Source of the DNA: Microcaldota archaeon
GTDB taxonomy: Archaea > Micrarchaeota > Micrarchaeia > Micrarchaeales > Micrarchaeaceae
Assembly: GCA_030040895.1 (NCBI GenBank)
Contig: JASHSJ010000002.1
Coordinates: 1 to 58,433, forward strand
DNA length: 58,433 nt
Reading direction: 5' to 3'
Below the pieces are notes generated by a model. That model ran no database searches and was not told where the DNA came from. It saw only the letters and a program-made list of their open reading frames with translations. Made by a program: the position numbers and the translations under genes. Shown here piece by piece: positions 4,495 through 20,695 of this stretch (position 1 is the stretch's first letter; each line of letters opens with the position of its first letter).

Positions 4495-7400
4495 ATGAAG
4501 ATGACGGGAATAGGACTGGTATTGCCGGCGTTGGCGCCGTTGCTAGTGATTATACTTAGCTCGATTGCTACATCATCGCTTGTGGCGCTCGCAGCCGTAT
4601 TCATATTCATAATAGCGGCCGCAGGGATGACGAGAGGACTTGACGTGTTCCAGATACTGGGACTGAACGCAGTGCTGGGAGCGGTAGGAAGTGTTGGAGT
4701 AGGGGGCGCAGGAAGAGGCATGAGGTCTGGATCTGCGGTTAGATTTACTGGGGCATATACGAGGGCTGTGGGAGGCGCTCTGACCGGATCAGCAACAACA
4801 TTTTTGGGAGGAGGGCTCAAGAAGAATCCAGTTACAGGAAGACCTTCTTTTGACTTGTATGGAGTCCAGGGCATGGAAAAGGTGCTGGAAAAGGCTGGAC
4901 AGAAACTAGAAACACGTTTTCCGAATGGTTTAGCTAGCGTACCAGTATTAGGAAGAGTAACTAATAGTTCACAAAGTCGTGAGACCGCAACGATAATGCA
5001 TAGCAAAATGGCAGGAGAGCGCGAAGCTAATGCAAATGGCGTGTCAGTACTGCCTATGGGAGGAGTACAAATGGCTGTTGCAGGAGGGCTAGTTGTGGGT
5101 GCCACTGCTGCTACTGCTGGTGCGTTAATGATAGAGAGAGACAAAGGTCAGCAAAAAACGACAGCCTCCAGTAGGGGAGAAATGTTTGTGAACAGCAGCG
5201 CAGGACTCCCGCCTGCAGGCTCTGAAAATAGGCAAAAGACAGAGCAGGATGCCATAGATAGAGGGAAAAGGGCATGGGATAATAGGGAAGGGATTTCAGG
5301 CACAAGAAGGGGGCAGAGCGCTGAAACAAAGACAGTTGAAGAGCAGCGCAGCAGAGTAGACAGCATATTGAAGGGCAAGAAGTCAAAAGAAGAAGAGGCG
5401 GAGGAGAGCGTAACGGAAAATGCTGCAGTTGAGGGTACAGTTTTTGGCCCTCTTCCTAAGGACACCGCCAGGAACGAGGATTTCAGGCAACACCGCATTG
5501 GAGAAGCAAAGGAGCAACTGGAAAAACTAGAAAGCCAGAGAAGTAGACTTAGTGAAGAAAGGGAGGCTGCGGTAAAGGCTGGAAATGCTGATGAAGTAAA
5601 TGCCATAGACAAGAGAACTAAAGATCTGAATGATAGGATCGACGCCGCTAATGAAAGGATAGAACTTATGGATAAGTCAAAGTTGCTAGGAACAGTAAGC
5701 ACAGTCGAATCTAGGCAGAGCAAAACCCCTATTATAGAAACCGGAGAGGGCCCTGGACTTCAAACAACACGCAAAGAAAGAAAGATGATGCAAATAGAGC
5801 AACAGAGGGAAGCCCTAAAGCTGATAGCTGACGCGCAGAAATCGGACAGGCAGAAGAAACAGATGAATAGAATTTTTGCGTACGTAAACCCTATGATGGA
5901 CAAACGTGATAAACTGGAGAGTGAAATAGAGTGGAACAAGAGCCACGCGGCTACGCTTGGAAAGAACAACGAGGAATTGGAAGAGCATTATGCAACTCTG
6001 ACTGCTAACAGGGATGCAATGCTAAAAGAGCAGGAAGCGCTCAGGAAGGCTGGAAGGAATACTGAAGCCGATGCACTCAACAAAGGTTTAAGGGGCCTTA
6101 ACAAGGGCATCTCAGCAATAGATAAACAGATGAAGGATACAACCAAGAGGATAGAAGCGCTCAACAAGAGGTCAAAGGAAGCTGCGAAACAGAAAGAGGC
6201 ACTGAGCAAGAGAATAAACCTTGCAGCGAAAACGGTAACTACGGAACCAGGAATACCAGTTCCTATAAAGGGCAAGCTTAGTTCCTATGTTATGCTATCG
6301 AGTAAGGGTGGAAAGCCGCTCGAAACTTGGAAGACTTCTGTTGAAACTAAGCGTGAGAGACTGGAGAGGAAGAGGCAGAAGCTGGAGCTGGGCACTGAGA
6401 TAACTGTGCCGTTCTTCGCCTTTAGGACTGGCAGGAGCTACGTGCACCCTGTAGAGAAAGAAGAGCTTAGGACGGAGGTAGTAAACGGCACAGGTGAGAA
6501 GGAGGCGGTGGTAAGATTTGATCCGGAAAGCGGAAGGACTGAAGTGTCTGTGGAAACTGTGCCCATGGGAAAAAAGGTATTAAGAGCAATACCTAGACTT
6601 GATGCAAAAGGCAATCCTATAAAAGGCGACGATGGACAGATAATATATGAAAGGGTCAAGCACACTACATTCGTAGTGCGTGAATTCTCGCCAAATGAAT
6701 ACAGGATATTCCCATCGATTTCTGGCGGTGGAATTCTCACAATGAGCGGAAAGTCTAGATCCACTGCGGCTCTTACAAATGATATAAGTAGCACAAGCAG
6801 AAGGATGCGCAGCGAGCGCTCATGGTCTATACTAGGACACCCAGTGCGTGCTCTTCCAAAGACCAACAAGGAATTTGAGGCTGTGCAACAGCAGCACAAG
6901 GAGAGAGAACAGGGAACAGCTGATGCGATAGCAAGTGCAGAGAATGCAAAGCTGGAAAAGGCGAAGGAGAGGGGTGGCTTCTGGGCTGAAACGCTCGATG
7001 GTGCCGAGAAGGAAAGAGCCGGATTAATAAGTGACAGAGAGGTGCTGCTCAAGGCTGGAAAGACTCAGGAAGCTGGATGGCTTGATAGAAGGATAAAGAC
7101 CTTGGATGGGAGAATAGAGGAAGCTAGATCTGCGATAACCAGGGGGGTTGCGAAGAAAGTCACTAAGAAGGCGGCAAAGAAGGAGCTAGCGGCACGCGGC
7201 AGGTTGCTGAAGGGCATGCGTGAAAAGGCAGATAGAGAGCAGAAAGACATAAAAAGAGAACAGGAGCAGTTCAGGCAGGAATACGGCGACCGCAAGTACT
7301 ACGAGTTACTTGATGAAGCAAGGCAGGAAGCCAGGGAGCGCACAGGGGAGGCACATTTTGCAGCACTAAGAGACTTCCGTACCTCAATAAGCGACTTCAA

Positions 7401-7740
7401 CAAGTACAGAATGAACGAGCATGGATATCTTGAACCTGCGCTTGGAAGTGGCGGCTCAGACAGGAAGAAGCTCGATGAGAAATATAACACTGAGATGGCG
7501 TCGCTATATGACAGATTCCAGATTATAAAAGCAAGAATGGACGCAGCAGGGCTAATACCGCGGACTGATCCGAACAGGAGCAAGATAATTGCGGCGATAG
7601 AGAAAGAAAGGACCGCCATAGTAACAAAGATGGCAAGGAAGAAAAAAGAATATGACCTACTCACAGCAGGAACTGCGCCGGTGGAATCAACAGTAGCCGT
7701 GAAGAATTCTGGTGTTTCGGCACCACCAATATCTGCTTAG
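4495..7740 (+). CDS. Giant membrane-anchored coiled-coil protein, function unknown
   Basis: From ATG 4495 the protein is 1081 residues. The reading frame stays open upstream to 4390, but a TATA-like stretch at 4459-4468 lies about 27-36 nt before 4495 and supports a leaderless start there. Residues 5-45 hold two hydrophobic segments, followed by a Gly/Ala-rich region with another short hydrophobic stretch near 205-225. The rest is highly charged Lys/Glu/Arg/Gln coiled coil. It is broken by a non-coiled region near residues 640-770 (from about 6400 to 6830). A motif of the form KAGxxxEAxxLDKRIKxL occurs three times. I do not recognise a family. It could be a structural scaffold or part of an envelope machine. 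Confidence 0.75.
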   Translation: MKMTGIGLVLPALAPLLVIILSSIATSSLVALAAVFIFIIAAAGMTRGLDVFQILGLNAVLGAVGSVGVGGAGRGMRSGSAVRFTGAYTRAVGGALTGSATTFLGGGLKKNPVTGRPSFDLYGVQGMEKVLEKAGQKLETRFPNGLASVPVLGRVTNSSQSRETATIMHSKMAGEREANANGVSVLPMGGVQMAVAGGLVVGATAATAGALMIERDKGQQKTTASSRGEMFVNSSAGLPPAGSENRQKTEQDAIDRGKRAWDNREGISGTRRGQSAETKTVEEQRSRVDSILKGKKSKEEEAEESVTENAAVEGTVFGPLPKDTARNEDFRQHRIGEAKEQLEKLESQRSRLSEEREAAVKAGNADEVNAIDKRTKDLNDRIDAANERIELMDKSKLLGTVSTVESRQSKTPIIETGEGPGLQTTRKERKMMQIEQQREALKLIADAQKSDRQKKQMNRIFAYVNPMMDKRDKLESEIEWNKSHAATLGKNNEELEEHYATLTANRDAMLKEQEALRKAGRNTEADALNKGLRGLNKGISAIDKQMKDTTKRIEALNKRSKEAAKQKEALSKRINLAAKTVTTEPGIPVPIKGKLSSYVMLSSKGGKPLETWKTSVETKRERLERKRQKLELGTEITVPFFAFRTGRSYVHPVEKEELRTEVVNGTGEKEAVVRFDPESGRTEVSVETVPMGKKVLRAIPRLDAKGNPIKGDDGQIIYERVKHTTFVVREFSPNEYRIFPSISGGGILTMSGKSRSTAALTNDISSTSRRMRSERSWSILGHPVRALPKTNKEFEAVQQQHKEREQGTADAIASAENAKLEKAKERGGFWAETLDGAEKERAGLISDREVLLKAGKTQEAGWLDRRIKTLDGRIEEARSAITRGVAKKVTKKAAKKELAARGRLLKGMREKADREQKDIKREQEQFRQEYGDRKYYELLDEARQEARERTGEAHFAALRDFRTSISDFNKYRMNEHGYLEPALGSGGSDRKKLDEKYNTEMASLYDRFQIIKARMDAAGLIPRTDPNRSKIIAAIEKERTAIVTKMARKKKEYDLLTAGTAPVESTVAVKNSGVSAPPISA
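5521..7125 (+). repeat. Three internal coiled-coil repeats in the giant protein
   Basis: Related segments are encoded near 5521-5660, 6001-6160 and 7009-7125 (protein residues about 342-389, 502-555 and 838-877). Each has a charged run, then AVKAGNADEVNAIDKR, ALRKAGRNTEADALNK or LLKAGKTQEAGWLDRR respectively, then a helix of the type xLxxRIxxA. They look like helical hairpins with a Gly turn at KAG. The DNA copies are diverged, so the duplication is old. Confidence 0.6.
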
Positions 7741-7752: not shown

Positions 7753-8493
7753 CTACTTCTGGGGCTGCTTCATGAACTGCTTGGCAAGCTCGCTGCCTAT
7801 CGCAACTCCTGTCGTTATCTCGGGCATTATCGTCCTATAAACTCCCACCATGCCGAGCTTTGGTATGCTGTCGACGTCGTTGATCCTGCTGATGACCCGT
7901 ATCCTTGGATTGGCTGACTTTGCAGCCACCGTTATCAGCGCGTTCTGGACATCGTCTTCATCGCACGCAACAACATATATCGCGCGCTTGGCCCCAGCTA
8001 TCTCGAATGATTCCTGAGACTTGGGGCTTCCGATGACTGCCATGTGCTTCCTCCTGGCAAAATGAAACGCATCGTGTTCCCTCTCCGCTATGGCCACGCT
8101 CTTCACGTTTATCTGGGCAAGCTCGTTGGCAACGTATTCCGCAAAGCTGTTTGCGGGGGCTAGCACAACGTGGTTTTCTAAATTCCTTATCTTTGAAAGC
8201 CCGAGAATGCGGCTCATCCTGAACCTCTTTATCATGTCAAAGAACATGGTTGCGAATGCGGCTGCCCATATCGCAAAGACGAATGCGTTTATAACTCCTA
8301 CTATGGGCACCAACGGGCTGGATTCGAATGCTATTGGCAGCAACTGGAAGTTCACCTGCAGCGATGACAGGATGTTCCAGAGCAGCGCTGTGCCCGGGCT
8401 TACTCCAGATATAAGCAGCAGCATGAACGATATGAAGAACATTAGCAGCCCGATGTAAACGAGCATGAACCTTGTGGTGTTCTCCTGCTTCAT
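7753..8493 (-). CDS. Two-TM RCK (TrkA-N-like) protein with no K+ filter and no Gly-rich loop
   Basis: The 246-residue protein has hydrophobic helices at about 8-29 and 60-84, then a Rossmann-like TrkA-N/RCK region from about residue 107. Architecture matches the MthK-type channel, but the loop between the helices has no TVGYG-like sequence. The dinucleotide loop reads LAPANSF where GxGxxG is expected. It starts with a 4-nt ATGA overlap with the upstream RCK gene, so both are almost certainly translated from one mRNA. A regulatory or structural subunit of a hetero-oligomeric channel is the most economical idea; conductance on its own looks unlikely. Confidence 0.75.
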   Translation of the reverse strand: MKQENTTRFMLVYIGLLMFFISFMLLLISGVSPGTALLWNILSSLQVNFQLLPIAFESSPLVPIVGVINAFVFAIWAAAFATMFFDMIKRFRMSRILGLSKIRNLENHVVLAPANSFAEYVANELAQINVKSVAIAEREHDAFHFARRKHMAVIGSPKSQESFEIAGAKRAIYVVACDEDDVQNALITVAAKSANPRIRVISRINDVDSIPKLGMVGVYRTIMPEITTGVAIGSELAKQFMKQPQK

Positions 8494-9281
8494 CCGACCA
8501 TCTTTTTCACTATTGCCTCTCCCATTTCAAGCCCTGACAGGACTTCCGGCACCACGCACAGATCTGCGCCCGCGCTGTGGAGCCTGGGCGTTGACTCGCT
8601 CGAATCCGCTTTTGCCAGTATCTTTATCCTCTTGTTGAGGCTCCTGGCCGTTATCACGCCAAGCATGTTCTCGTAGTCATTGTCGGAAAGGAACATCACC
8701 GCCTTCGCGTCCTGGACCGCAGCGCTTGACAGGCCAGTAGCAGTGGTGTAGCTCTCCCTTATGCACGGTATTCCGGCTTCGGTCATCAGGTCTATCGACG
8801 TCTGGTTCCCGTCTATGACAACGAATCTTTTGCCCTTTTCTTCCAAGCTCCTTATCATCTTGTCAGCGAGTCCAGAATACCCGCATATTACATAATGGTC
8901 CTTCATGCCCCTGAATCCCAGCCCGTATCTGCTTAGCCTTGCATCAAGCGATGTTATTATGTCAATAAGTCCGGCTATCACGAAGCCTATTATTATCATC
9001 TTGACAAGGCCGTCTATCGCTGATATGCCAAGTAATATGTAATCGGGAATGCCGCCTGCTGATGCTATGCCTATGAACGACGCGCTCTGGTCGAATCCTA
9101 TGGCATCGAATATAGAAGCGGTTGTATAGTAGCTAGCAGCATAGAGGTTATGCACTTCATAGTCGAGCGCGGTTATTGATACGATGGTGAAAAGAATTGA
9201 AGCAGCAGCAAGATAAAGCAGGAGTTCTGCAGCGGCGCTCCTCGCCTCTGGTATGGCAGCCTGCTTGTTCACATCCACCAT
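8490..9281 (-). CDS. Two-TM RCK channel-like protein with degenerate K+ filter
   Basis: The 263-residue protein has TM1 at about 20-38, a pore-loop-like segment with AIGFDQ at residues 60-65, TM2 at about 82-110 and an RCK (TrkA-N) domain from about 127 with CGYSGLA as the nucleotide loop. AIGFDQ sits where K+ channels carry TxGxGD. The Gly is kept, but the first Thr and the second Gly are not. It may be a modified ion channel. It is the middle gene of a three-gene operon, 8 nt after the solo RCK gene and overlapping the next by 4 nt. Confidence 0.78.
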   Translation of the reverse strand: MVDVNKQAAIPEARSAAAELLLYLAAASILFTIVSITALDYEVHNLYAASYYTTASIFDAIGFDQSASFIGIASAGGIPDYILLGISAIDGLVKMIIIGFVIAGLIDIITSLDARLSRYGLGFRGMKDHYVICGYSGLADKMIRSLEEKGKRFVVIDGNQTSIDLMTEAGIPCIRESYTTATGLSSAAVQDAKAVMFLSDNDYENMLGVITARSLNKRIKILAKADSSESTPRLHSAGADLCVVPEVLSGLEMGEAIVKKMVG

Positions 9282-9289
9282 AAGCTCAC

Positions 9290-9721
9290 CTATACGGGCT
9301 TGAACAGCTCACGTATCATCTCCTTGCTGGCAGTTTTCTGTGGCATTGCAACGTAGTTGGCTCCAGCTTCAACAAGCTTGTCCCTTGCAAAATCGTCGTT
9401 GGCCCTAGTCGCTATGTATATGCCCTTGCTTGAATCGCGTGCTGCAAGAACACAGAAAAGATCCTTCGCGTCGTTGTCCATCGCTATCGCTATCGCCTTG
9501 GCAGAATCGATGGATGCCTCGCGGAGAGTTTTTGTTCTGGTGGCATCGCCAACTATGGCCCTGTAGCCGAGCTCCCTCACGCGCTCCACAACCTTGATAT
9601 CGTTGTCTATGACTATGAACTGGATTTCCTTTTCGTCAAGAAGCCTCACTATCTCCATGCCCACCCTGCCGAATCCGCAGATAATTACATGATTTTTCAG
9701 CAGTGGCACTTTCGTTGGCAT
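9290..9721 (-). CDS. Stand-alone RCK/TrkA-N nucleotide-binding protein
   Basis: The 143-residue protein is a single TrkA-N domain: beta1 HVIICGFGRVG (Gly loop 16-21) and an acidic residue closing beta2 (FIVIDND), which favours NAD(H) or related nucleotides. There is no TrkA-C domain and no membrane segment. It heads the operon with the two membrane RCK proteins and probably joins their cytoplasmic gating ring, as free RCK subunits do in MthK- and Ktr/Trk-type systems. A TATA-like sequence is near 9752-9764. Confidence 0.85.
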   Translation of the reverse strand: MPTKVPLLKNHVIICGFGRVGMEIVRLLDEKEIQFIVIDNDIKVVERVRELGYRAIVGDATRTKTLREASIDSAKAIAIAMDNDAKDLFCVLAARDSSKGIYIATRANDDFARDKLVEAGANYVAMPQKTASKEMIRELFKPV

Positions 9722-11040: not shown

Positions 11041-11097
11041 GTTGTAGCTATTGCACCCAACCATTATAAACATTCCTAAACTTGATTTAGCGCCGGC

Positions 11098-11124
11098 ACA
11101 TGCCAACTTCGATGTCGAATTGGC
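11098..11124 (+). repeat. Repeat family copy, diverged (acatgccaacttc type)
   Basis: The copy shares acatg, caacttc, and gaattggc with the copy at 15756-15822 in the same order and spacing. It lacks the tagctcca part. It lies just upstream of the minus-strand Cys-rich protein gene and is the leftmost copy seen. Confidence 0.5.
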
Positions 11125-11173: not shown

Positions 11174-11515
11174 TTAAAAATCTTCGGATGACGTGTCGGG
11201 AATTGAGAGCTCTTCGCCCTTTCTTATGACCCTCAAGGCGACGTTGGCCCCATTTTCGAAATCTGGAGCCACGTTCGGATTCCTCGATCTGTTGACGTGC
11301 CTTTCTGGATCCGGATATAAATGGATGACGCCGTTACGCTTGTGCGTGAAATTCTCTCTTTCGTACTTTGGCAGTTTCCAGTATTCTTCCTCGGTCAGAG
11401 CCTTGAGCTTCCATTTTATCACAACATCGCCTTTCTTGAAGTCTCTGTTGGCGAAGGCGCCAAGGCCATCCTTGAACTGCCCGATTTCTGATTTCCCTAT
11501 CACAACGTCCGCCAT
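11174..11515 (-). CDS. Small SET-domain protein (putative lysine methyltransferase)
   Basis: The 113-residue protein is little more than a SET core: GLGAFANRDFKKGDVV at the N-terminus, NRSRNPNV in the position of the SET NHSxxPN motif, and KGEELSIPD where SET enzymes have GEELxxDY. SET proteins transfer methyl groups from SAM to lysines, on histones or other proteins in archaea. The His of NHS is Arg and the final Tyr is absent, so activity is uncertain. No pre-SET or post-SET is present. The promoter-like TATA lies in the repeat copy at 11541-11571. Confidence 0.68.
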   Translation of the reverse strand: MADVVIGKSEIGQFKDGLGAFANRDFKKGDVVIKWKLKALTEEEYWKLPKYERENFTHKRNGVIHLYPDPERHVNRSRNPNVAPDFENGANVALRVIRKGEELSIPDTSSEDF

Positions 11516-11540: not shown

Positions 11541-11571
11541 ATAATATAGCTCCAGCATATGATGCTGCTAG
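11541..11571 (+). repeat. Repeat family copy (atatagctccagc) acting as SET-gene promoter region
   Basis: Contains atatagctccagc followed by an AGCAT/ATGCT inverted repeat in place of the usual hairpin. On the minus strand it reads GGAGCTATATTATTATAATG, a TATA-rich element 25-35 nt before the SET gene start at 11515. Same orientation as all other copies. Confidence 0.5.
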
Positions 11572-11642: not shown

Positions 11643-14174
11643 ATGGCTAAACCTATCCTTCATGGACACCACATAATGTTGGCAATAATAATATCATACT
11701 TTTTGATTCTTATTACTCTTGGCACTACGCTAGTGGGCCTGGCGGGTGCAATGGCGTGCGTCCTTGTCAACGGGGTACCGCAATGTATCACAGTATCAAC
11801 CACGATGCACTACTCTAGCTCTACTACTTTGAAGTCCAGCACTACACTATCTTCATCTTCAACCACACTGGAATCATCGAGCACTAGCACAATAACTATG
11901 CCAATTACGATCATGATAAGTAATGGCTGCGTCCAGCTAACTCAGTCAAATGCGATATACTTGCTGACTAGCAACATTGGCTGCAATGCCACCACCATCA
12001 GTCTTGTAAAAGGCGTTAGCGGGATAACCTTGAATTGCCAGGGTCACGAGATTGAGAACTATGCTCCAATCGAAGTTAATAATTACTCTCTTGATTTTCT
12101 GGGACAAAATAACAACAATATAGTAGAAAATTGTGTGATAAATCTTCCTTCTATTCCGCTTAACCACGCTGTAGCACAAACAATACTTGTGGCAAACAAT
12201 TCCAACCATAATGTCTTTTCAAACATTAACTTGGCCGCAAACACCTCTATCACGGTGATAAATTCCTCCTACATTGGTATAACCAATAGCGTGTTTACCT
12301 ATTCACTGGGCGCAGTACTAGCAACGAACTCGAGCGGCGATTACATCTACAATAATACGATTTTAAATGCGCTGACTGGGATTTCTCTGATAAATACGTC
12401 AAACACCCAGGTCCTAGGCAACAAAATATACAACGCCATTAATAGCGCCCTACTGATTGGCAAGAGTGACAACAACACCCTTAAAAACAACGTGATGGAC
12501 TGGAGTTATGATGACGCAATACAGACAAGATATATCGAAGCAAACGGGCAAGTTTATGTCGTAAACGGTACTACAATTGCGAACAACATAGCATTTGGCG
12601 ATGCGGACGCGTTCCTTGAAGACATTGGCAGCGACAACACCCTCATAGCAAACAACATAATAGGAGGCATCGGAAATGCGGCCATATGGTTCAATCTCTT
12701 CCCCGGTTTTAATCCCCCTCCTCCTGGCACCTTTTTTGATAATCATACGACAATCATAAACAACGTCTTCTATTCAATCAGCGGACAAAACTACGTGTAC
12801 AATGACTCCCCGCCGGGCGGAGTCAATCACGTTACGCTTTCCGACAACCTATTTACCAACTATACTCTAAATTCGTATCCACAGTACATAGCATTCTTTG
12901 TTGAGGTTGTTGGGACTTTTATAGTGGATACTTCGACTGGCGCCCACGCAATAAGGGCAACGAACATTAGCAATATGGCACTAACCCCATATATAAATGG
13001 TGTACAGCTGCCTAAGTTGCTGAAAGGGCAATCGGTAGCTTATGCTGGCGTAAACCTCACTTACTTCGGATTCTCACCCCTTTCTGATGCTGCCTATGCT
13101 TATGTAACCGCAGCAAGCAATACACAACAACCTCCAACATCCATAGTAGCTAGTGCGTCCCAGACAGGCATTCCTATTAATACTATCTTTAACCTGGTTG
13201 CCTATGTTCAAAATCCACCTCCAAAAGCTTACAACTTGAATTTCTGTGTTTGCAGCGGAGCTGGATGTAATCCTTCTGCTTCCCAATGCGAGCAATATGG
13301 TTTACCTGAAGCTGGCGGCGCTATCAGTGGTTTTTACCCGCTTTGCGTTTCCCCCGGATTCCCAGGTTGCTATGCACTCGGCACCTATGGGCTACAGGCA
13401 TATGTGGTACTGGCGAACGGCTTAACTTTGAGCAGCTCCACTAATACATTCACTATAATACCACCCCCTCCTCAGGTATCTCTCAACTGGTCCCAGACAA
13501 ACGTAACCGTGGGCAATTCTGTCACGGCAAACGCACTAGTCACGAACCCCCCATCAATGACATACTATACCCAACTCCATTATTGCAATGGCATATGCAA
13601 TCCAACGTCAAGCAGTCCAACGATAGGCAATGCCGTTTATAATTCCACAAATCCATCATTGTCCTTCAACACTTCCGAAACATCTAGCACCTGCCCACCT
13701 GGCGCTGGCAACTGCCTCGGACCAGGCAACTATACCATTATAGCATGCACCACATATGGCACACCAACGCCAACGTATAATGTATGCAGTAGCGGCTTTC
13801 TCTGGCTATTGAACGTCACAGGATATCCACTGGTGTCAATTTCGAGCATATCTCCAAATCCAGCCGCATATAATGCGCAAATAACGATAGCGACAACAAT
13901 CACAAACCCCCCAGCCAACGGAGACTACATAGCGCTTTTTGAATGCTCACCGGCGCCTTGCACGCCATCAACCTCTAACATAGGCTATGAGGGCCAGAGC
14001 CTATCCGGCAGTGTTGGAAAATACGATTTCACTGTATGCGGCCACGCGTATTGCTGGCCGGCTGGAAATTATAACGTAACGGCGTGCGTTTCTGGGATAT
14101 TGAGCACCCCCGGACCTCCATGGCCCTATTGCAGCGCAGTGGAAGGACTCACTGTAGAAGATCAAGGCGGTTAG
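11643..14174 (+). CDS. Large surface protein: parallel beta-helix plus Cys-rich NPP repeats
   Basis: The 843-residue protein begins with a hydrophobic helix (GHHIMLAIIISYF onward, about 8-37) and a Ser/Thr-rich stalk (about 55-90). Residues about 110-430 have the repeating N-N-x-I/V pattern of right-handed beta-helix (PbH1/NosD-like) proteins, with ITLNCQGHEI as a typical first rung. From about 500 to the end there are three Cys-rich beta domains starting at NPP. The same domains and a nearly matching leader occur in the 402-residue protein at 50016-51224. Beta-helices often bind or cleave polysaccharide; no catalytic residues are evident. It likely sits on the outer surface. Confidence 0.75.
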   Translation: MAKPILHGHHIMLAIIISYFLILITLGTTLVGLAGAMACVLVNGVPQCITVSTTMHYSSSTTLKSSTTLSSSSTTLESSSTSTITMPITIMISNGCVQLTQSNAIYLLTSNIGCNATTISLVKGVSGITLNCQGHEIENYAPIEVNNYSLDFLGQNNNNIVENCVINLPSIPLNHAVAQTILVANNSNHNVFSNINLAANTSITVINSSYIGITNSVFTYSLGAVLATNSSGDYIYNNTILNALTGISLINTSNTQVLGNKIYNAINSALLIGKSDNNTLKNNVMDWSYDDAIQTRYIEANGQVYVVNGTTIANNIAFGDADAFLEDIGSDNTLIANNIIGGIGNAAIWFNLFPGFNPPPPGTFFDNHTTIINNVFYSISGQNYVYNDSPPGGVNHVTLSDNLFTNYTLNSYPQYIAFFVEVVGTFIVDTSTGAHAIRATNISNMALTPYINGVQLPKLLKGQSVAYAGVNLTYFGFSPLSDAAYAYVTAASNTQQPPTSIVASASQTGIPINTIFNLVAYVQNPPPKAYNLNFCVCSGAGCNPSASQCEQYGLPEAGGAISGFYPLCVSPGFPGCYALGTYGLQAYVVLANGLTLSSSTNTFTIIPPPPQVSLNWSQTNVTVGNSVTANALVTNPPSMTYYTQLHYCNGICNPTSSSPTIGNAVYNSTNPSLSFNTSETSSTCPPGAGNCLGPGNYTIIACTTYGTPTPTYNVCSSGFLWLLNVTGYPLVSISSISPNPAAYNAQITIATTITNPPANGDYIALFECSPAPCTPSTSNIGYEGQSLSGSVGKYDFTVCGHAYCWPAGNYNVTACVSGILSTPGPPWPYCSAVEGLTVEDQGG

Positions 14175-14177: not shown

Positions 14178-14205
14178 GATATAGCTCCAGCGTATATCAA
14201 GCTAT
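14178..14205 (+). repeat. Repeat family copy (gatatagctccagcg)
   Basis: Directly after the stop of the beta-helix gene, atatagctccagcgtat matches the family core. The usual hairpin is replaced by ATAGCT/AGCTAT flanking arms. No minus-strand gene starts nearby, so promoter use is not evident here. Confidence 0.5.
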
Positions 14206-14248: not shown

Positions 14249-14277
14249 CTATTGATTATGCTGCATTGCGTGATTCG

Positions 14278-15162
14278 ATGGAAGCCGACCCACCTTTACA
14301 GAGCCGGACTTCCGATACCGCACCAGAGACAGCTTATGCGCCCAAAAGCGTAAGCAGGGGCCCAATTGTCGCTGGCGTACTCGCGGTAGTAATCGTGATT
14401 TGCCTTGCTTATTTATATCTCAGTGGTGGGATTGGTAGTGCTGCAAAAATGCAAGGTGCAACCACGGCAAGCACCCAACCTACTACTACACAGGCCACTA
14501 GCACGTATTCCGGTACCTATGATGGACAGTACGTGACACTGACTAGATTATTTGGAGCAAGCACGTCTATTGAGGACCTGCCTGACGCCACACAGGTCGG
14601 CTATTTATACAACTTTTCGACTACCAATTCTACAGTTGCGTGCCTGGATGGCGAACCGATACTCGTCTGGACGGCGCCAAATGAATATCCTGGTGAATAT
14701 ATAGCACACAATGGTAATCAAGGTACACAGTGCGCTTATGTAACTCTGCTATTCCCGCAAAGTTCCACTGTTACAACACCGCCACCGCAAAGTTCCACTG
14801 TTACAACACCATCTGCATCCGAATTAACATTCCAATTTAGCAATATAGCAAACTATGACAATGGGCCTACTGTCACGTTGTTTAATGGGGGCGAGCTTAT
14901 ATTCGATACATCAAACGATACAGCATCGGTGACTTTGAGCAACGGGACGATTATCAATTTCGGCCAGCTCACATCAATATGCCACAGTTGCACTTCTGGG
15001 GCATATGCATATTCAAAAGACTGGAGCCCTGATCAGAAGATTGAAGATGGTATAGAATTTGAGGCGGTTTTTGTGAGCAATATAACAACATCTTACATAT
15101 CTTTCGAGTATCCGCCGAGCATCAATAACTATGCCTATTCCGCTAATTATAGTGCGCCATAG
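14278..15162 (+). CDS. Secreted or membrane-anchored protein with Thr/Ser stalk, unknown function
   Basis: The protein (294 residues from ATG 14278) has a cytoplasmic N-terminus of about 35 residues, one membrane helix (about 36-55), a Thr-rich linker and an extracellular region. That region holds a short domain, a ten-residue tandem repeat (PQSSTVTTPP twice, DNA period 30 nt), and a second domain with several N-glycosylation sequons. No family is recognised. The architecture matches the 216-residue protein at 9777-10427. It is followed after 11 nt by a repeat-family copy. Confidence 0.62.
   Translation: MEADPPLQSRTSDTAPETAYAPKSVSRGPIVAGVLAVVIVICLAYLYLSGGIGSAAKMQGATTASTQPTTTQATSTYSGTYDGQYVTLTRLFGASTSIEDLPDATQVGYLYNFSTTNSTVACLDGEPILVWTAPNEYPGEYIAHNGNQGTQCAYVTLLFPQSSTVTTPPPQSSTVTTPSASELTFQFSNIANYDNGPTVTLFNGGELIFDTSNDTASVTLSNGTIINFGQLTSICHSCTSGAYAYSKDWSPDQKIEDGIEFEAVFVSNITTSYISFEYPPSINNYAYSANYSAP
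14755..14810 (+). repeat. Tandem duplication, 30-nt period, within the coding region
   Basis: Two identical 26-nt copies (14755-14780 and 14785-14810) are spaced exactly 30 nt apart, encoding a repeated ten-residue Pro/Ser/Thr linker. Exact identity suggests a recent slippage event and likely length variation between strains. Confidence 0.8.
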
Positions 15163-15173: not shown

Positions 15174-15210
15174 TTGCTCCAGCGTAATCCAACTTCAATG
15201 TTGGATTAGC
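15174..15210 (+). repeat. Repeat family copy with perfect 9-bp hairpin
   Basis: ttgctccagcg is followed by TAATCCAAC, a 6-nt loop, and GTTGGATTA, then gc. The 21 nt gctccagcg...cttc segment (15176-15196) is identical to parts of the copies at 17102-17155 and 19839-19871. It lies at the downstream end of the Doc-toxin module, between it and the convergent plus-strand gene. Confidence 0.7.
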
Positions 15211-15226
15211 CCGCTTATCCCTGCCC

Positions 15227-15346
15227 TTAGCGCATTCTTGTTTTGGCCTGCAATGCTATAGCGTAGACTTCATCCCTAAGCCTAGCTTCAAGCGCAGCCC
15301 AGCGCTTTCTTTCCTTCTTCAATATTGTCATGAAGCTCTTGTTCAT
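15227..15346 (-). CDS. Small basic ORF overlapping the Doc toxin gene (39 aa)
   Basis: ATG 15346 overlaps the doc stop codon as ATGA, and the frame runs 39 codons to TAA at 15227. The product begins MNKSFMTILKKE and is helical and Arg/Lys-rich (ERKRWAALEARL). The translational coupling is the main support. It could be a small partner or antitoxin of the Doc-like toxin, or just a short chance frame. No family is recognised. Confidence 0.4.
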   Translation of the reverse strand: MNKSFMTILKKERKRWAALEARLRDEVYAIALQAKTRMR

Positions 15347-15705
15347 TCAATCATCTTCTTTATCCATCTTTTTACTTGTAGCCGGTTTTCTTTTCCCTGT
15401 GCTATCTTATTCAGATAGGTTCCTACGACATCTATTTGGCTTTTCTTATATTTAAATGTAATGTTGTTGAGTTCGAGGAACGTTACCATTGAATAGAAAG
15501 CTGTCCTTTTGTTGCCATTGAGGAATATGTGCAATGATATTATGTCATGGAGAAGCACGGCAGCATAATTGAATATGTCATCAGTATATTCCAGCTTGTC
15601 CATCAGCTGGGCCAAGTTCGATTTGTTCAGAACAGTGCCACCCTCTTCTATGCTTTTATTTACCGCTATTATCTGCTCCGAAGTGAGCTTTACAAGTTCA
15701 GACAT
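15343..15705 (-). CDS. doc: Doc-type (Fic fold) toxin
   Basis: The 120-residue protein carries the Fic/Doc motif HIFLNGNKRT at residues 59-68. In Doc, a kinase-like Fic relative, HxFxxxNKR directs phosphorylation of EF-Tu and stops translation. In Fic AMP-transferases the end is GNGR; here NKR favours the Doc type. The typical partner Phd is encoded upstream, but no Phd-like gene is present. Instead a 39-codon ORF overlaps downstream. The promoter region is the repeat-family element at 15757-15794, about 50 nt before the start. Confidence 0.82.
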   Translation of the reverse strand: MSELVKLTSEQIIAVNKSIEEGGTVLNKSNLAQLMDKLEYTDDIFNYAAVLLHDIISLHIFLNGNKRTAFYSMVTFLELNNITFKYKKSQIDVVGTYLNKIAQGKENRLQVKRWIKKMIE

Positions 15706-15755: not shown

Positions 15756-15822
15756 GTGATTTTGCTAATTTGAGTTTACCTTTATATAGCTCCAACATGT
15801 CAACTTCAAAGTTGAATTGGCC
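15756..15822 (+). repeat. Repeat family copy with 38-bp conserved block and hairpin
   Basis: A 38-nt block (15757-15794) identical to those at 16337 and 17987 is followed by a TCAAC/GTTGA hairpin with a 6-nt loop and gaattggcc. It separates the doc module from the DUF4258 gene. Confidence 0.75.
15757..15794 (-). promoter_or_regulatory. Conserved TATA promoter block upstream of doc
   Basis: Read on the minus strand: GGAGC TATATAAAGG, then about 25 conserved nt. The TATATAAA (plus 15781-15788) puts transcription start near 15757-15760, 52-55 nt before the doc ATG. The same 38 bp precede two unrelated gene modules. Confidence 0.55.
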
Positions 15823-15837: not shown

Positions 15838-16071
15838 TCATGGCAAATATTTTTTAATTTTCTTAGTTTCCCATGCCGTAATTATGAACTTTACGCCGCC
15901 GCTAAGCGAATATATGACTATAACAACTTTATTTCCGAATAGCTTGATTGCTTGATATTCGTCATCTTTTCTGTGTAGCTTGTCTGGTGCATCTGCCGTC
16001 AGACTTACCTGTTCGGCACTAAGCTTCCTTTCGGCAATCCTCTTGAGCGCATGCTTAGAGAAAATCAGCAT
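15838..16071 (-). CDS. DUF4258 protein, putative RelE-like toxin
   Basis: The 77-residue protein begins with the DUF4258 pattern FSKHALKRIAERKLS and ends with IITAWET. DUF4258 has a predicted RelE/ParE-like fold and is commonly encoded next to small antitoxin-like genes. The start codon overlaps the stop of the DUF2283 gene by one base (TAATG), implying coupled expression. RNase or other toxin activity is inferred from fold and context only. Confidence 0.72.
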   Translation of the reverse strand: MLIFSKHALKRIAERKLSAEQVSLTADAPDKLHRKDDEYQAIKLFGNKVVIVIYSLSGGVKFIITAWETKKIKKYLP

Positions 16072-16301
16072 TAACTTACCAGGACTACATTTTCAAACTC
16101 TTTTACGAGCTTTCCCAGTTTGAAGTTTACTTTTGAGAAGTTTAGTATCTCTATGCCGATAAGCTTCTTGTTCTTGTCGAGATCGGCTAGTACATTGTCC
16201 TCTATTTCTGCGGTTTCGTAGACTTTTGCCCCTTTCTTAACCTTTATGTATGCAGCGTCGGCCTCTTGATCGTATTCGAATATGTATTCCTTCATAATCA
16301 T
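16071..16301 (-). CDS. DUF2283 protein, putative antitoxin partner
   Basis: The 76-residue protein matches DUF2283: EYDQEADAAYIKV near residues 9-21, TAEIEDNVLADLD in the middle, and the GIEIL motif. DUF2283 and DUF4258 genes are often adjacent in archaea and bacteria and are treated as a toxin-antitoxin-like pair. Start may be ATG 16301 or the next ATG at 16295. Its promoter is the conserved block 16337-16374, giving a leader of roughly 36 nt. Confidence 0.75.
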   Translation of the reverse strand: MIMKEYIFEYDQEADAAYIKVKKGAKVYETAEIEDNVLADLDKNKKLIGIEILNFSKVNFKLGKLVKEFENVVLVS

Positions 16302-16336: not shown

Positions 16337-16374
16337 TGATTTTGCTAATTTGAGTTTACCTTTATATAGCTCCA
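16337..16374 (-). promoter_or_regulatory. Conserved TATA promoter block upstream of the DUF2283/DUF4258 pair
   Basis: The same 38 bp as at 15757-15794 and 17987-18024, read on the minus strand with TATATAAA at plus 16361-16368. Predicted transcription start near 16337-16340, about 36-40 nt before the DUF2283 ATG. Confidence 0.55.
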
Positions 16375-16403
16375 GCGTAATCCGACTTCGATGTTGAGAT
16401 AGC
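16338..16403 (+). repeat. Repeat family copy with 38-bp block, between DUF2283 and VapC genes
   Basis: The identical 38-nt block (16337-16374) runs into gcgtaatccgacttcgatgttgag, where the hairpin is weakened by substitutions, and ends with tagctc, the beginning of another unit. A separate CTACT/AGTAG inverted repeat follows at about 16413-16426. Confidence 0.75.
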
Positions 16404-16441
16404 TCTGAATTACCTACTCTCGAGTAGTCCGATTTAAAGAT

Positions 16442-16822
16442 TTAATTGAACAGTTCAAGTCCATTACGTTGCATATCCTTAAAATGATCCCTATCAAATG
16501 TGTATAACTTCCCTTTGTTGTTTATTGTTATTGCTGCAATCATTGTGTCTGTTCTGCGTACCCGCCTGCCTCTCCCTTCTGTTTCGAATTCAAGCGCCGC
16601 GGATAAAACAGAATCAGCTTTCGTATACTCTAGAACTGGCAAGCCTAATATGTTTTGAGCTTCTTTGGCATATTTGTATATACCATATAGCACCTCATGG
16701 AGTGTTATTGTAGTTATCCCTATGTCTTCACCGGCTTCTGCAATTTTCCTGAGCGCCTCATCTCCTTTCTCTGATTGCTTCTCGAAAATCTCTATTAGAA
16801 CATCTGTATCTATGACAATCAT
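16442..16822 (-). CDS. vapC: VapC-type PIN-domain ribonuclease toxin
   Basis: The 126-residue PIN protein has the acidic metal-binding set: D5 in VIDTD, E43 in LHEVLYG, D92 in RTDTMIA and D110 in YTFDRDHF. VapC toxins cleave RNA, often tRNA or rRNA, when freed from VapB. It starts one base after the end of the vapB gene, so the two are coupled. Confidence 0.9.
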   Translation of the reverse strand: MIVIDTDVLIEIFEKQSEKGDEALRKIAEAGEDIGITTITLHEVLYGIYKYAKEAQNILGLPVLEYTKADSVLSAALEFETEGRGRRVRRTDTMIAAITINNKGKLYTFDRDHFKDMQRNGLELFN

Positions 16823-17032
16823 TTATCTCAGCTCTGCTCTTTTGGCATAGATCTCGTTTAGCATGCCCTTCTTGTCTCTAAACACAAACCTGCCTCTTAA
16901 CCCTTTGAGGGCATCGAGAGGCGTGGCAAGCTTCACCAGCCTATCGAATAAATCGCTAAAGCTTTCGCTCTTCTTTTTGACTTTTGTCAGCTCCAGATAT
17001 ACTTCATTTTTTATTGTTATTGTCTTGGACAT
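16823..17032 (-). CDS. vapB: VapB antitoxin, DUF217 (UPF0330) family
   Basis: The 69-residue protein matches the archaeal DUF217 antitoxin: a SKTITIKNEVYLEL strand-helix start, the ESFSDLFDRL motif near residues 23-32, and a basic C-terminal tail that would wrap VapC. It neutralises VapC and should repress its own promoter. An imperfect 20-bp palindrome at 17039-17058 and a TATA-like run near 17057-17068 are placed for that role. Confidence 0.88.
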   Translation of the reverse strand: MSKTITIKNEVYLELTKVKKKSESFSDLFDRLVKLATPLDALKGLRGRFVFRDKKGMLNEIYAKRAELR

Positions 17033-17101: not shown

Positions 17102-17155
17102 CAACTTCTAAGTCGACTTAGCTCCAGCGTAATCCAACTTCTGAGTTGAATTAGC
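17102..17155 (+). repeat. Repeat family copy carrying an exact 27-nt tRNA-Gln 3'-end direct repeat
   Basis: 17102-17128 is identical over 27 nt to 19855-19881, which spans the last 10 nt of tRNA-Gln plus its flank. It is followed directly by a second unit (tagctccagcgtaatcc...) with a CCAAC/GTTGA-type hairpin ending in ttagcc. It lies between vapB and the metallopeptidase gene. Confidence 0.8.
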
Positions 17156-17192
17156 CTCACGAAAACACTAAGTGCTATCTATGATTTGGCGT

Positions 17193-17969
17193 TTATTGAG
17201 ATAAACGCTTCTTTGGCAATATGGCCTTTGGCCACTGTCTTGCAGCAGCTGGTGCAGGAAGCTCTTTGAAGAATTTGAACAGGGCAGTTCTTCTTTTGCT
17301 AGGCTTGGTTTCCGCTTCTATCAATTTAATGAACATATCAACATATTTCAAATTTTTTTCAAATGTTGTTTTTGCTCCGTGCTTTTTAGTCCATTCGATC
17401 CGCTCCTTCAAGAACCCGACATCCCTGCCATAGTAATTTCCAAGATAGTATTCCGCAAACACTGTCATGCCTTCGTTATATTTCCATCTATTGTCCCCTG
17501 TGTTATAAAACCCCAGTCTGTTGTAATTGAAAAGCGTGTGCATCCATTCGTGGAACATTACATCGAAAGAGTCTTCGGAGATTTTCTGCTTGGACGCTTT
17601 TACTATAGGAGAGTATCCCATGCTATTTGGCCTGATCTTCTTTGCTAGTTTTTCTATCATACTCTTATGTTTTGGATCATTTAGAAGTTTTATGTAACTA
17701 AGAATATACCGTTTTTGCACAGCAAGCCCTTTAGAGTCGATTTTGATTAGGTCGTTGGAGAGCAGAAATTTTTCGAAGTTTTTAGCCCTCTGTTGGCCTG
17801 GTTTACCGAATTTTTTATCATACGCTGGGCTCCCTGCTAGATAGTTCAATATATTAACCTCTTTCTTTGTCAAAAAACTCGCTACAAATATTTTACGATC
17901 GAATTTCAGGCCAAGCTGGTCTGCTTTCTCCCTTATTTTCCTCAAAACCTCTTCTTTGCCCTTGTGCAT
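17193..17969 (-). CDS. HEXXH zinc metallopeptidase-like protein
   Basis: The 258-residue protein has HEWMH at 140-144 and NEGMTVFAEY with Glu166, the gluzincin arrangement where two His and a downstream Glu bind Zn and the Glu of HEXXH activates water. There is no signal peptide, so it probably works in the cytoplasm unless exported another way. The N-terminal half is Lys-rich and helical; no family is recognised there. It lies within the repeat-delimited array, with the conserved 38-bp promoter block ending 18 nt before its start. Confidence 0.72.
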   Translation of the reverse strand: MHKGKEEVLRKIREKADQLGLKFDRKIFVASFLTKKEVNILNYLAGSPAYDKKFGKPGQQRAKNFEKFLLSNDLIKIDSKGLAVQKRYILSYIKLLNDPKHKSMIEKLAKKIRPNSMGYSPIVKASKQKISEDSFDVMFHEWMHTLFNYNRLGFYNTGDNRWKYNEGMTVFAEYYLGNYYGRDVGFLKERIEWTKKHGAKTTFEKNLKYVDMFIKLIEAETKPSKRRTALFKFFKELPAPAAARQWPKAILPKKRLSQ

Positions 17970-17985
17970 CTAAACACATTTGTTA

Positions 17986-18051
17986 GTGATTTTGCTAATT
18001 TGAGTTTACCTTTATATAGCTCCACCCTAATTCTAATGACTTTAGGGTTAG
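17986..18051 (+). repeat. Repeat family copy with 38-bp block and changed but intact hairpin
   Basis: After the shared 38 nt the arm sequence becomes ACCCTAA and TTTAGGGT: the hairpin is kept although the bases differ from the CCAAC/GTTGG arms of other copies. It sits directly upstream of the metallopeptidase gene. Confidence 0.75.
17987..18024 (-). promoter_or_regulatory. Conserved TATA promoter block upstream of the metallopeptidase gene
   Basis: Third exact copy of the 38 bp. TATATAAA at plus 18011-18018 predicts transcription start near 17987-17990, roughly 18-21 nt before the ATG at 17969. The rest of 18052-18187 shows no convincing gene. Confidence 0.55.
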
Positions 18052-18187
18052 TATCTTTTTGCATTCTCAAAGGAGTTTTAATATCGTTTTTCGATTACAT
18101 TCTGACCCTATACTATGGTACAGGGTTGCAAGATCCACAAGGAATTGATATTAAAACCCACGCAGAAACGGAAACGTAGTACTCCAA

Positions 18188-19720
18188 TTAGTCACTATGT
18201 ACCAAACCAGTCCACTCACCTGAAGTAACATTTGGTAAGGTAAGAGACCCGACAAGACTGGCCCCGCTTGCTACATAAAGTTTCGTACTATTCGCAATAT
18301 AGACATAGTTGTTAACAGGGTCGTAGCCGAACATCATAACAGTACTTGAAACGGCAGGTAGAGAGCCTGCTAATGAAGTTCCGCTTATAACTGCCGTTCC
18401 GCTTGCAGCAGGCACATAAACATAATTGTTCGAAGGATTGCTAAATAGATATGGAGCAGGTACGTTGTTATTGGTGCCACCTATATTGATATTTGCTATT
18501 GGGGTGTTGCTTCCACCAAATACAGTTATGTTGTTGCGTAATTGGAAGTAGGTATACCCGCTTTGGTTATTTTGCCCTAAATTATAGCCTGCCTGCAGAA
18601 TTCCCGTGCTATTATGAGTAGGAACCAAGGCTGTACCGTTAAATACTGATATCAAACCACCAGGAACCACCGGTGTGGAATACAGAGTGCCCTGTATCTG
18701 GTCGTAGCTCAAAGCACCAAAGTTACCATAAATCTTGTTTGTCAGACTTGTGCCGCTAATCAAGTAAAGAGTGTCGTTGGGGTAGCTTGCTAAACCATAT
18801 GTGTAACTTCCAAAAGAGTAAATTGGGGTTACGGTTCCTGATGTCGAAATTGTGGTTGCAAGCTGGGTTCCGGTTATCACAGCAATACCGCTGCCGAAAG
18901 TAGGAACGTACAGATGTTGGTTGTTGAAGCTCATGCTTCCACCAGGACAACCCGAAAGGCTTACAGTACTAACTAATGAGGTTCCGCTAACCACATATAC
19001 CTCGTTTGGAGAGCACGACGCTATGTACAAATCGTTATTGTAGGTATCGTACACCATGCCGACTGGCGAACTTATTGACAACATGCTGCTTACCAGTTGC
19101 CCGCCTTTGAAGATATTAAGTGAGAACGAAGAACCTGACGAAGAATTCAGCGCAAGAACGTAGGCGTATCCATTAGTTCCTGTACTACCCAGGGGCAGAT
19201 TTATTCGGCCCGATAGTGTTACCGTGCCAACGATCTGGGTGCCGTGAATCACAGATACCTCTCTTGATCCCTGAGAGAACGCATACATATAATCATTGTA
19301 ATTTTGCAACACGGTTGTCGTGGTACTAGAGGTTGTAGTAACTGACGTAGTGGAGCCAGACGAAGTACTACTTGTACTAGCTGAAATTGTAGATATAGTA
19401 CTTGATTGGGCTATTGTAGTAGAGCTTGAGGAGGTACCACCAATGATAGATATTGTTGGAACCGTTGTTTGCTGGGTAGAAGTGACAGGAGCAGTAGCAG
19501 ATGCAGGTACTATTGTTGGTGTAGTTGTTGATACAGAGGTGGTGCTTGTAGTAGTTGAACCTGTAAAGAGATGTGAAAAGAAGTTAGCAATTCCATGGAA
19601 GAAATTAGTAATTGAGCTAAAAATCCCCAGATAAACAGGATTGGGCAGTATGCTAGAGGCGCTTACAATACTGATCAGCAAGGTTGATGCCAAGAGCATT
19701 AAAACTAAGGACTTAGACAT
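18188..19720 (-). CDS. Secreted YVTN-type beta-propeller surface protein
   Basis: The 510-residue protein has an N-terminal signal or anchor helix (about 4-22) and a Ser/Thr-rich stalk (about 55-145). A run of roughly seven to eight repeats follows, of the form YDxxNNxxYVxSGTSLVxTVxLSG, typical of YVTN/40-residue beta-propellers of archaeal surface-layer proteins. The repeat sequences are close to each other, so the propeller probably arose by recent internal duplication. It likely mediates surface contact. TATA-like tttaaa at 19743-19748 fits a leaderless mRNA. Confidence 0.8.
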   Translation of the reverse strand: MSKSLVLMLLASTLLISIVSASSILPNPVYLGIFSSITNFFHGIANFFSHLFTGSTTTSTTSVSTTTPTIVPASATAPVTSTQQTTVPTISIIGGTSSSSTTIAQSSTISTISASTSSTSSGSTTSVTTTSSTTTTVLQNYNDYMYAFSQGSREVSVIHGTQIVGTVTLSGRINLPLGSTGTNGYAYVLALNSSSGSSFSLNIFKGGQLVSSMLSISSPVGMVYDTYNNDLYIASCSPNEVYVVSGTSLVSTVSLSGCPGGSMSFNNQHLYVPTFGSGIAVITGTQLATTISTSGTVTPIYSFGSYTYGLASYPNDTLYLISGTSLTNKIYGNFGALSYDQIQGTLYSTPVVPGGLISVFNGTALVPTHNSTGILQAGYNLGQNNQSGYTYFQLRNNITVFGGSNTPIANINIGGTNNNVPAPYLFSNPSNNYVYVPAASGTAVISGTSLAGSLPAVSSTVMMFGYDPVNNYVYIANSTKLYVASGASLVGSLTLPNVTSGEWTGLVHSD

Positions 19721-19788
19721 GTTAACTTATCTGCCAAAAAGGTTTAAATAGTAGTGCAAATAACGCTCAGAAATAGCTGTATTCTAAA

Positions 19789-19823
19789 GCCAAACCCGTA
19801 CAGATTCGAACTGGGGTCCTCGG
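19789..19823 (-). pseudogene. Decayed tRNA 3'-end (T-arm) remnant
   Basis: Shares a 14-nt T-arm sequence (cagattcgaactgg at 19801-19814) exactly with tRNA-Gln at 19882-19895, but the T stem pairs over only 3 bp and no 5' half is visible. It is best read as a leftover tRNA 3' end. Confidence 0.45.
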
Positions 19824-19838
19824 CGACAAGAAATTCCG

Positions 19839-19871
19839 TAGCTCCAGCGTAATCCAACTTCTAAGTCGACT
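19839..19871 (+). repeat. Repeat family copy abutting the tRNA-Gln 3' end
   Basis: One 33-nt unit (tagctccagcgtaatcc...gact) ends exactly where the tRNA-Gln gene's own tagctccagc begins. The unit and the tRNA end form a tandem arrangement, and 19855-19881 is the 27-nt sequence repeated at 17102-17128. Confidence 0.8.
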
Positions 19872-19944
19872 TAGCTCCAGCCAGATTCGAACTGGCGTCG
19901 CAAGGTCCAGAGCCTTGCATCCTTGACCACTAGACGATGGAGCT
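19872..19944 (-). tRNA. tRNA-Gln (CTG anticodon)
   Basis: On the minus strand: acceptor AGCTCCA/TGGAGCT, discriminator A, anticodon stem CAAGG/CCTTG around loop CTCTGGA (anticodon CTG), and T arm GCCAG TTCGAAT CTGGC. CCA is not encoded. The A1-U72 first pair fits archaeal tRNA-Gln. Its 3' end sequence recurs in the repeats to the left, marking it as a likely integration site. Confidence 0.92.
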
Positions 19945-19996: not shown

Positions 19997-20695
19997 ATGC
20001 AAGCGCAGCAGGCACGCGTTTCTGGGGAGGAGCTCAAGCAGATAGTTATAGCAGACATTGCTCTGATCATTGGTTTTGCGCTTGTGTTCTCTGGCGGGCT
20101 GCTTGGTGCAATCAAAGATCCCCATACTTTTCTTCTTTACATACCGGTAGCTGCTGTCGGAGTAACTCTCAGCTTCGTTCTTCATGAACTTATGCACAAG
20201 TTCTTTGCACAGAGATACGGTGCTGTGGCTGGCTTTCGATCAAGCCAGATTGGCTTGATAATAACTCTGGGCAGCAGCATGTTCGGATTCCTTCTCGGAC
20301 TTCCTGGTGCCACATATGTATATGCCAGCAACTTCACAAGGAAGGAAAATGGAATAGTGTCGCTGGTTGGCCCGCTGACCAACATTGTGATATTCTTTAT
20401 TGCGCTTGTTGCGCTCATTGCACTCCAGTCAAAAATCGGCAATGGGTTGCTTGGCGATGCGATAGCGTTCACTATGTTCATAAACCTGTGGCTTGCTTTC
20501 ATCAACATGCTGCCCATCATGCCATTCGATGGGGCAAAAGTCTTCTACTGGAACAAGCTTGTCTATTTCCCTATGATGCTTGCCATAATAATACTGCTCG
20601 TAGTGTTTGAGAGTTCTGTGTTTTCCTTGTATACCCTGCTTCTCGTGCTCATCCTTTCATACATAATGAGCATGTCGTACAGACTGGTTCTCTAA
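19997..20695 (+). CDS. Site-2-protease-like M50 membrane metalloprotease
   Basis: The 232-residue integral membrane protein has HELMH at residues 63-67 inside a hydrophobic helix and NMLPIMPFDGAKV with Asp178, the two zinc-ligand motifs of M50 intramembrane proteases. About six membrane segments are visible. Family members cut transmembrane segments to release regulators or clear signal peptides. No PDZ or CBS domain is attached. It is divergent from tRNA-Gln and only 40 nt upstream of the secretion operon, so processing of surface proteins is possible but not shown. Confidence 0.87.
   Translation: MQAQQARVSGEELKQIVIADIALIIGFALVFSGGLLGAIKDPHTFLLYIPVAAVGVTLSFVLHELMHKFFAQRYGAVAGFRSSQIGLIITLGSSMFGFLLGLPGATYVYASNFTRKENGIVSLVGPLTNIVIFFIALVALIALQSKIGNGLLGDAIAFTMFINLWLAFINMLPIMPFDGAKVFYWNKLVYFPMMLAIIILLVVFESSVFSLYTLLLVLILSYIMSMSYRLVL

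Follow-up and report, generated by a model that had tools for sequence, protein, structure and literature searches.

How did a row of single genes come to lie behind one tRNA gene in a Micrarchaeota genome? The question is raised by the tRNA-Gln locus of a Microcaldota archaeon of the Micrarchaeaceae, analyzed here in a stretch of 58,433 nucleotides (the window; contig JASHSJ010000002.1 of assembly GCA_030040895.1). The source genome (G000) is a draft of 764 kb in 34 contigs and is 92% complete. DPANN archaea have very small genomes, and the ways in which they gain genes are poorly known. At this locus, an island of about 10 kb separates tRNA-Gln from a conserved TrkA-domain gene, and copies of the tRNA-Gln 3′ end recur throughout it. 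The island is probably a tRNA-anchored array of single-gene cassettes that has no integrase of its own and was built by serial site-specific integration in trans. It looks like an integron-style collection of genes at a tRNA, assembled by an enzyme that is absent from the locus.

Sites and units behind tRNA-Gln

The first-pass annotation of the window reported an exact 27-nt direct repeat and read its copies as attL and attR of a single 2.7-kb element. The two stretches, 17102–17128 and 19855–19881 on the plus strand, are identical (CAACTTCTAAGTCGACTTAGCTCCAGC), and the right copy does consist of 10 nt of the tRNA-Gln 3′ end and 17 nt of flank. This tRNA-Gln (CTG; 19872–19944, minus strand) is intact according to ARAGORN and Rfam (RF00005, 59.8 bits), has a neighborhood with the M50 gene that is conserved across the order, and anchors the array in the manner of an attB or attI site. 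Shuffling predicts no copies of the 27-mer, and just two exist in the genome with up to three mismatches allowed; the repeat is not dispersed over unrelated loci. However, the 27-mer represents only part of a site family whose members are longer and degenerate, and its copies mark two in a series of about nine tandem junctions spread over 8.8 kb and not simply the ends of one element. The genes of the supposed 2.7-kb cargo are present, but they form two single-gene cassettes split by a tRNA-tail copy at 18016. The island also extends to the left of 17102 through VapBC, DUF2283-DUF4258, Doc, and other genes. Site-specific integration at the tRNA-Gln 3′ end is supported; the single element is not.

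The tRNA-Gln 3′ end (GCTGGAGCTA or a close form) is present in nine copies in the island, all in a single orientation. Most copies are preceded by a dyad, GCTAATTCAAC-N6-GTTGGATTAC, and AGCTCCAGCG, the complement of the tRNA-Gln 3′ end, precedes most dyad-arm sites on the plus strand. Scanning for the two arms places sites at 11099, 15185, 15796, 16378, 17130, and 19850, all on the plus strand. The site at 15185, which a degenerate pattern search had returned as a third site, has the perfect dyad TAATCCAAC-TTCAAT-GTTGGATTA. A listing of GCTCCA positions adds tRNA-tail copies at 18018, 14183, and 11548.

From the tRNA outward, the first of these plus-strand features is site A (19839–19875), a tRNA-tail copy with a dyad that was defined by repeat comparison and the site model; it runs into the tRNA and delimits an empty 33-bp unit (19839–19871). 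Site B (18016–18052), from the tail listing, is a tRNA-tail copy with a diverged dyad. The arm scan and the site model define site C (17102–17156), a double site composed of the 27-mer and a dyad shifted by 33 nt, as well as sites D (16366–16404) and E (15786–15822), each a tRNA-tail copy with a dyad. Site F (15174–15211), also found by the arm scan, combines a perfect 9-6-9 dyad with a partial tRNA tail, and its DNA fold has a z-score of −6.1. Farther out, the tail listing gives the copies ATAGCTCCAGCG (14181–14192) and ATAGCTCCAGCA (11546–11557), both without a dyad. The outermost site (11087–11124) is diverged and is independently recovered (E = 3e-4) by model R1, which was built on five sites that do not include it. 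A 33-nt period, made up of the tRNA tail and 22 nt, recurs at both ends of the originally reported segment, where 17119–17155 and 19839–19875 agree at 92% over 37 nt.

These sites carry 8–10 nt of tRNA-Gln each. The island contains TGGAGCTA seven times in the tRNA sense and not once in antisense, against a Markov expectation of 0.2 and a maximum of three in 1500 simulations. Although coding sequence makes up 87% of the island, all nine sites fall in the gaps that separate transcription units, and each interval holds one unit. Site orientation is constant although two genes are reversed. In addition, an identical 38-bp block with a TATA-like box opens three units with unrelated genes (17987–18024, 16337–16374, and 15757–15794, minus strand). 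This block contains TATATAAAG in gene orientation and is promoter-like, which suggests that it may drive the cassette genes. Neither the 38-bp block nor the dyad occurs elsewhere in the genome, model R1 has no match in the other 163 genomes of the order, and an exact-pattern DNA search of viral contigs did not find the sites.

Read in the orientation of the tRNA, a unit consists of a start block, its gene or genes, a dyad, and GCTGGAGCTA, after which the next, presumably older, unit begins. The order from the tRNA outward is the empty 33-bp unit, a 510-aa protein, a 258-aa HEXXH protein, VapBC, DUF2283-DUF4258, Doc, a 298-aa protein, an 843-aa beta-helix protein, and a SET-domain protein. Each of the eight gene-bearing units has one gene or one toxin-antitoxin operon between adjacent tail copies. 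The cassettes measure 0.5–2.6 kb, none includes an integrase, and their GC content is 38–47% vs 49–51% in the core.

The relatives preserve the locus in its unoccupied form. The TrkA_N-domain gene at the left border (9290–9721, minus strand; Pfam, synteny) adjoins tRNA-Gln in G004, G006, G017, and G020, so the empty sites that the first-pass annotation proposed to look for do exist. Whereas 10.1 kb separates the two here, the distance in G006 is about 80 nt, that in G004 and G017 is 190 nt, and that in G020 is 15 nt (measured to the first of two tRNA-Gln copies). On the right, the M50 peptidase (19997–20695, plus strand; Pfam, synteny) is a conserved neighbor. In the genus and family, the ancestral arrangement is TrkA-domain genes followed by tRNA-Gln and then the M50 peptidase. 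Proteins of the island have no match in the relatives’ tRNA-Gln neighborhoods, whereas the flanking proteins do match there. The tRNA-Gln hot spot is occupied in other genomes as well, with 61-bp, 21-nt, and whole-tRNA duplications flanking segments in G031, G014, and G020. In the last of these (L077, oriented as the window), a 104-bp direct repeat of 98% identity (12528–12631 and 13912–14015) surrounds about 1.4 kb and constitutes a complete second tRNA-Gln gene.

Two features lie beyond the left border of the island. Three consecutive TrkA_N-domain proteins are encoded at 7753–9721 in a block conserved in the family. Between two conserved genes, 4390–7740 encodes a 1116-aa protein without a Pfam match that is patchy in relatives.

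Cassette genes

The cassette nearest to the tRNA encodes a secreted, Thr/Ser-rich protein of 510 aa (18188–19720, minus strand) that is possibly propeller-like; the propeller call comes from one sub-threshold Arylesterase match in the Pfam search. The next (17193–17969, minus strand) encodes the 258-aa protein that was first annotated as an HEXXH peptidase. The motif is present (FHEWMH), but the protein matches no family in Pfam or NCBIfam and has no relative in the genome collection. The VapBC pair (16442–17032, minus strand) comprises the toxin VapC (16442–16822; Pfam PIN, 4e-12) and the antitoxin VapB (16823–17032; VAPB_antitox, 3e-10). Close homologues of this pair (47–58%) are found in other Micrarchaeota at L142 4078–4664 and L208 3197–3772, near tRNA-integrase elements yet not flanked by tRNA-tail copies.

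The following unit contains a toxin-antitoxin-like pair (15838–16301, minus strand) of DUF2283 (16071–16301; Pfam, 2e-16) and DUF4258 (15838–16071; 1.5e-6). The Doc/Fic toxin (15343–15705, minus strand) scores above the cut-off of NCBIfam DOC_P1 (1.7e-16), and a short open reading frame (about 15221–15340, minus strand) comes after it. Both reversed genes are on the plus strand and encode the 298-aa protein (14266–15162), assigned as an open reading frame, and the 843-aa beta-helix surface protein (11643–14174; Pfam Beta_helix, 4.7e-12). A SET-domain protein of 113 aa (11174–11515, minus strand; Pfam SET, 1.8e-7) completes the array.

Integrases, parallel arrays, and the origin of the island

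The first-pass annotation saw no integrase in the window, which is confirmed, and suggested a search for a tyrosine recombinase in the rest of the genome. One is found on contig C15; it belongs to a tRNA-targeting family and is the sole recombinase that the family profile detects in the assembly. This family is widespread in the order, with up to nine matches per genome, and its named members are almost all from Candidatus Micrarchaeota. Among viral contigs, the C15 integrase finds just two remote matches. The integrase gene lies directly behind a tRNA 3′ end and in the same orientation in 55 of 80 named Micrarchaeota loci, and the targets are tRNAs for Leu, Glu, Ala, Pro, Val, Lys, and Gln. 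A repeat of the tRNA tail follows 1.7–9 kb downstream in 26 of the 55 tRNA-linked loci, and 38 of them have a second T-loop copy (GTTC) at a distance of 47–49 nt behind the one in the tRNA. One such element, in FK3.bin83, occupies tRNA-Gln with a 61-bp repeat and a T-loop spacing of 48.

Two further observations concern these elements. The C15 integrase faces the tRNA from the far end of its own 2.9-kb element (C15:36-3012, L237). Copies of a 15-bp repeat from the tRNA-Val(GAC) 3′ end delimit this element, and the layout is equal in L211. At L103, L104, L107-L109, L122, L123, and other loci, the integrase reading frame continues in phase, without a stop codon, across the 3′ half of the tRNA gene. 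At these loci, the N-terminus of the integrase may be encoded by the tRNA, or the gene may start within the attachment site.

The window retains the geometry of these elements. Its T-loop spacing is 81, which equals the 48 of the family plus the 33-bp unit; after this unit is subtracted, the relic second T-loop copy GACCCCAGTTCGAATCTG (19801–19818, minus strand) is 48 nt from the T-loop. Because of this relation, an element of the integrase family probably once stood directly behind tRNA-Gln until the 33-bp unit pushed it away.

Among the fetched loci, exact 10-mer tail copies occur in multiples behind three other tRNAs. At tRNA-Val(TAC) in L176, an integrase element is followed by tail copies around a PIN-domain gene and a HicA-containing operon. 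At tRNA-Glu in L161, an integrase element precedes an alcohol-dehydrogenase-like gene and then a NUDIX gene, whose flanking sites are 90% alike over 48 bp. At tRNA-Val(GAC) in L211, the integrase element is followed by a Doc unit between tRNA-tail copies. This Doc is 44% identical to that of the window, and a short open reading frame follows both. When 74 tRNAs were screened for repeated tails with flanks in common, three were positive (the window, L161, and L176), and the reverse-strand control gave none. None of the other 30 tRNAs examined in the source genome carries an array, and no convincing dyad was found in the L161 and L176 sites. A weak match in G165 to the L161 site was dropped after inspection.

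The following mechanism could account for the island. Each cassette would end in a recombination site, composed of the dyad and a 10-nt copy of the tRNA-Gln 3′ terminus (GCTGGAGCTA), and would travel as a circle. The tail of the circle would recombine with the tail of tRNA-Gln, which would place the crossover within the shared tRNA sequence. The catalyst would be a tyrosine integrase acting in trans, from the tRNA-targeting family of Micrarchaeota described above. With each insertion, the tRNA would be restored, the new cassette would adjoin it, and older cassettes would be displaced outward. The joined ends of a single circular cassette, such as the Doc or DUF2283 unit, would then read dyad-GCTGGAGCTATATAAAGG. 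The missing dyads at 14181 and 11546 fit older junctions farther out.

Several observations weigh against this account. The tRNA-Gln locus has no integrase, and the integrase on C15 probably serves tRNA-Val and not tRNA-Gln, since its own element has tRNA-Val(GAC) repeats at its bounds. The dyad persists at the outermost site (11087), whereas two outer sites lack it and that of site B differs. Moreover, the comparison yielded no two strains set apart by just one cassette, and the relatives are about 50% identical in protein.

The strongest competitor, although considerably less probable, is tandem accretion and decay. In this scenario, integrase-bearing elements inserted serially at tRNA-Gln and then lost the integrase and most genes, leaving scars between single-gene leftovers that were never mobile as such. 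Complete family elements do occur at tRNA-Gln in relatives, the propeller unit opens with the relic attachment geometry of such an element, and elements integrated in tandem at a single site are known from archaea (PMC8371274, PMC6563490). Yet apart from that relic, the array has no integrase remnant, as the family-profile search finds only C15. The exact 38-bp start common to three unrelated units, the compactness of units with intact genes, and the recurrence of a Doc unit of similar size (594 vs 613 bp) between tail copies at another tRNA in another genome all argue for movement unit by unit. We favor cassettes that are themselves mobile, as far as sequence comparison can indicate.

The remaining explanations are improbable to different degrees. 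A lone 2.7-kb integrative element with attL at 17102 and attR at 19855, beside unrelated toxin-antitoxin genes, would explain why no identical pair containing tRNA sequence is longer than the 27-mer and why this repeat is confined to two places; it is hard to sustain when the site family goes on at 16366, 15786, 15174, and 11087 and the tail copy at 18016 divides the segment. Slightly less credible still is a regulon of surface and toxin-antitoxin genes with shared promoters or operators. In three copies (15757, 16337, and 17987), the dyad immediately precedes TATATAAAG and the start of a gene, as a dyad before a TATA box should. However, the best dyad, at site F, lies between the 3′ ends of convergent genes, and site A runs into the tRNA; on account of these two positions, the view that the dyad/TATA block is nothing more than a repeated promoter was rejected. 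The tRNA-Gln sequence within the sites and their fixed orientation beside reversed genes also speak against a regulatory role. Least plausible of all, and very nearly dismissed, is a canonical integron or a CALIN, an attC cluster without an integrase, as in archaeal draft genomes. Each cassette has one gene and one site in constant orientation, and sites F and C match RYYYAAC-N6-GTTRRRY (two found vs 0.04 expected). On the other hand, there is no IntI; the sole recombinase reaches 26.9 bits with TIGR02249 vs a 265-bit cut-off, and the anchor is a tRNA. The dyads are short and of the double-strand type, and most do not fold beyond chance: z-scores are −1.7 to +0.5 for most sites, and only F and 14181 (−3.2) stand out. 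The dyad as a bacterial-type attC was rejected on folding.

A broader possibility is more tentative. Micrarchaeota may possess an integron analogue in which the tRNA 3′ end is the entry point and integrases of resident elements, acting in trans, collect single genes. Such a system would gather mainly toxin-antitoxin modules and surface proteins, ordered behind tRNAs, in genomes below about 1 Mb. If true, tRNA-anchored capture of single genes would be a second, independent solution to the task performed by bacterial integrons. It would also show that genes without an integrase exploit the integrases of resident elements, and it would leave an ordered, readable record of gene acquisition. A full-text literature search found no paper on Micrarchaeota that combines integrase, tRNA, and mobile, and a review of archaeal recombinases does not mention DPANN.

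Comparison with known systems

Archaeal tRNA-targeting elements use tyrosine integrases and have their attB at the tRNA 3′ end, as described in a review (PMC8371274) and a survey of Thaumarchaeota (PMC6563490). The locus shares with them the target, the restored tRNA, direct repeats that contain the tail, empty sites in relatives, and the possibility of tandem integration at one site. Unlike in these elements, about nine junctions here bound units of 0.5–2.6 kb, each with one gene or one toxin-antitoxin operon. A junction here consists of about 10 nt of tRNA and a dyad, and no unit has an integrase.

Integrons and CALINs have been reported in archaea (PMC9668308), in a study that does not mention tRNA. 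Both these systems and the present array have single-gene cassettes with one site each, constant orientation, and one anchored end, and CALINs likewise lack their own recombinase. In contrast, the array has no IntI, attI, or, for most sites, folded attC, and its anchor is tRNA-Gln. Two of its cassette genes are reversed, and three cassettes have their own promoter-like block.

The dif (pdif) modules of Acinetobacter are also small, have short dyads with a 6-bp center at their bounds, and in many cases hold a toxin-antitoxin pair or a single gene (PMC6449649, PMC13141974). Compared to the 11-6-11 dif type, site F is a perfect 9-6-9 and site C is near, but B, 14181, and 11546 do not conform. The sites here do not alternate, contain tRNA sequence, and are gathered at one tRNA, unlike those of dif modules. 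In the assembly, which is 92% complete, no XerA-type recombinase exceeds the cut-off; the sole recombinase scores 63.7 vs 220 bits.

CIMEs are described as decayed or hitch-hiking larger segments. The term is used in the context of composite islands and tandem accretion (PMC5704250). Like CIMEs, the island has recombinase-less segments between attachment sites beside elements with equal sites, but its units are compact, carry single genes, and stand in a row. The locus thus appears to be a variant of archaeal tRNA-site integration (PMC8371274, PMC6563490) that has not been described before.

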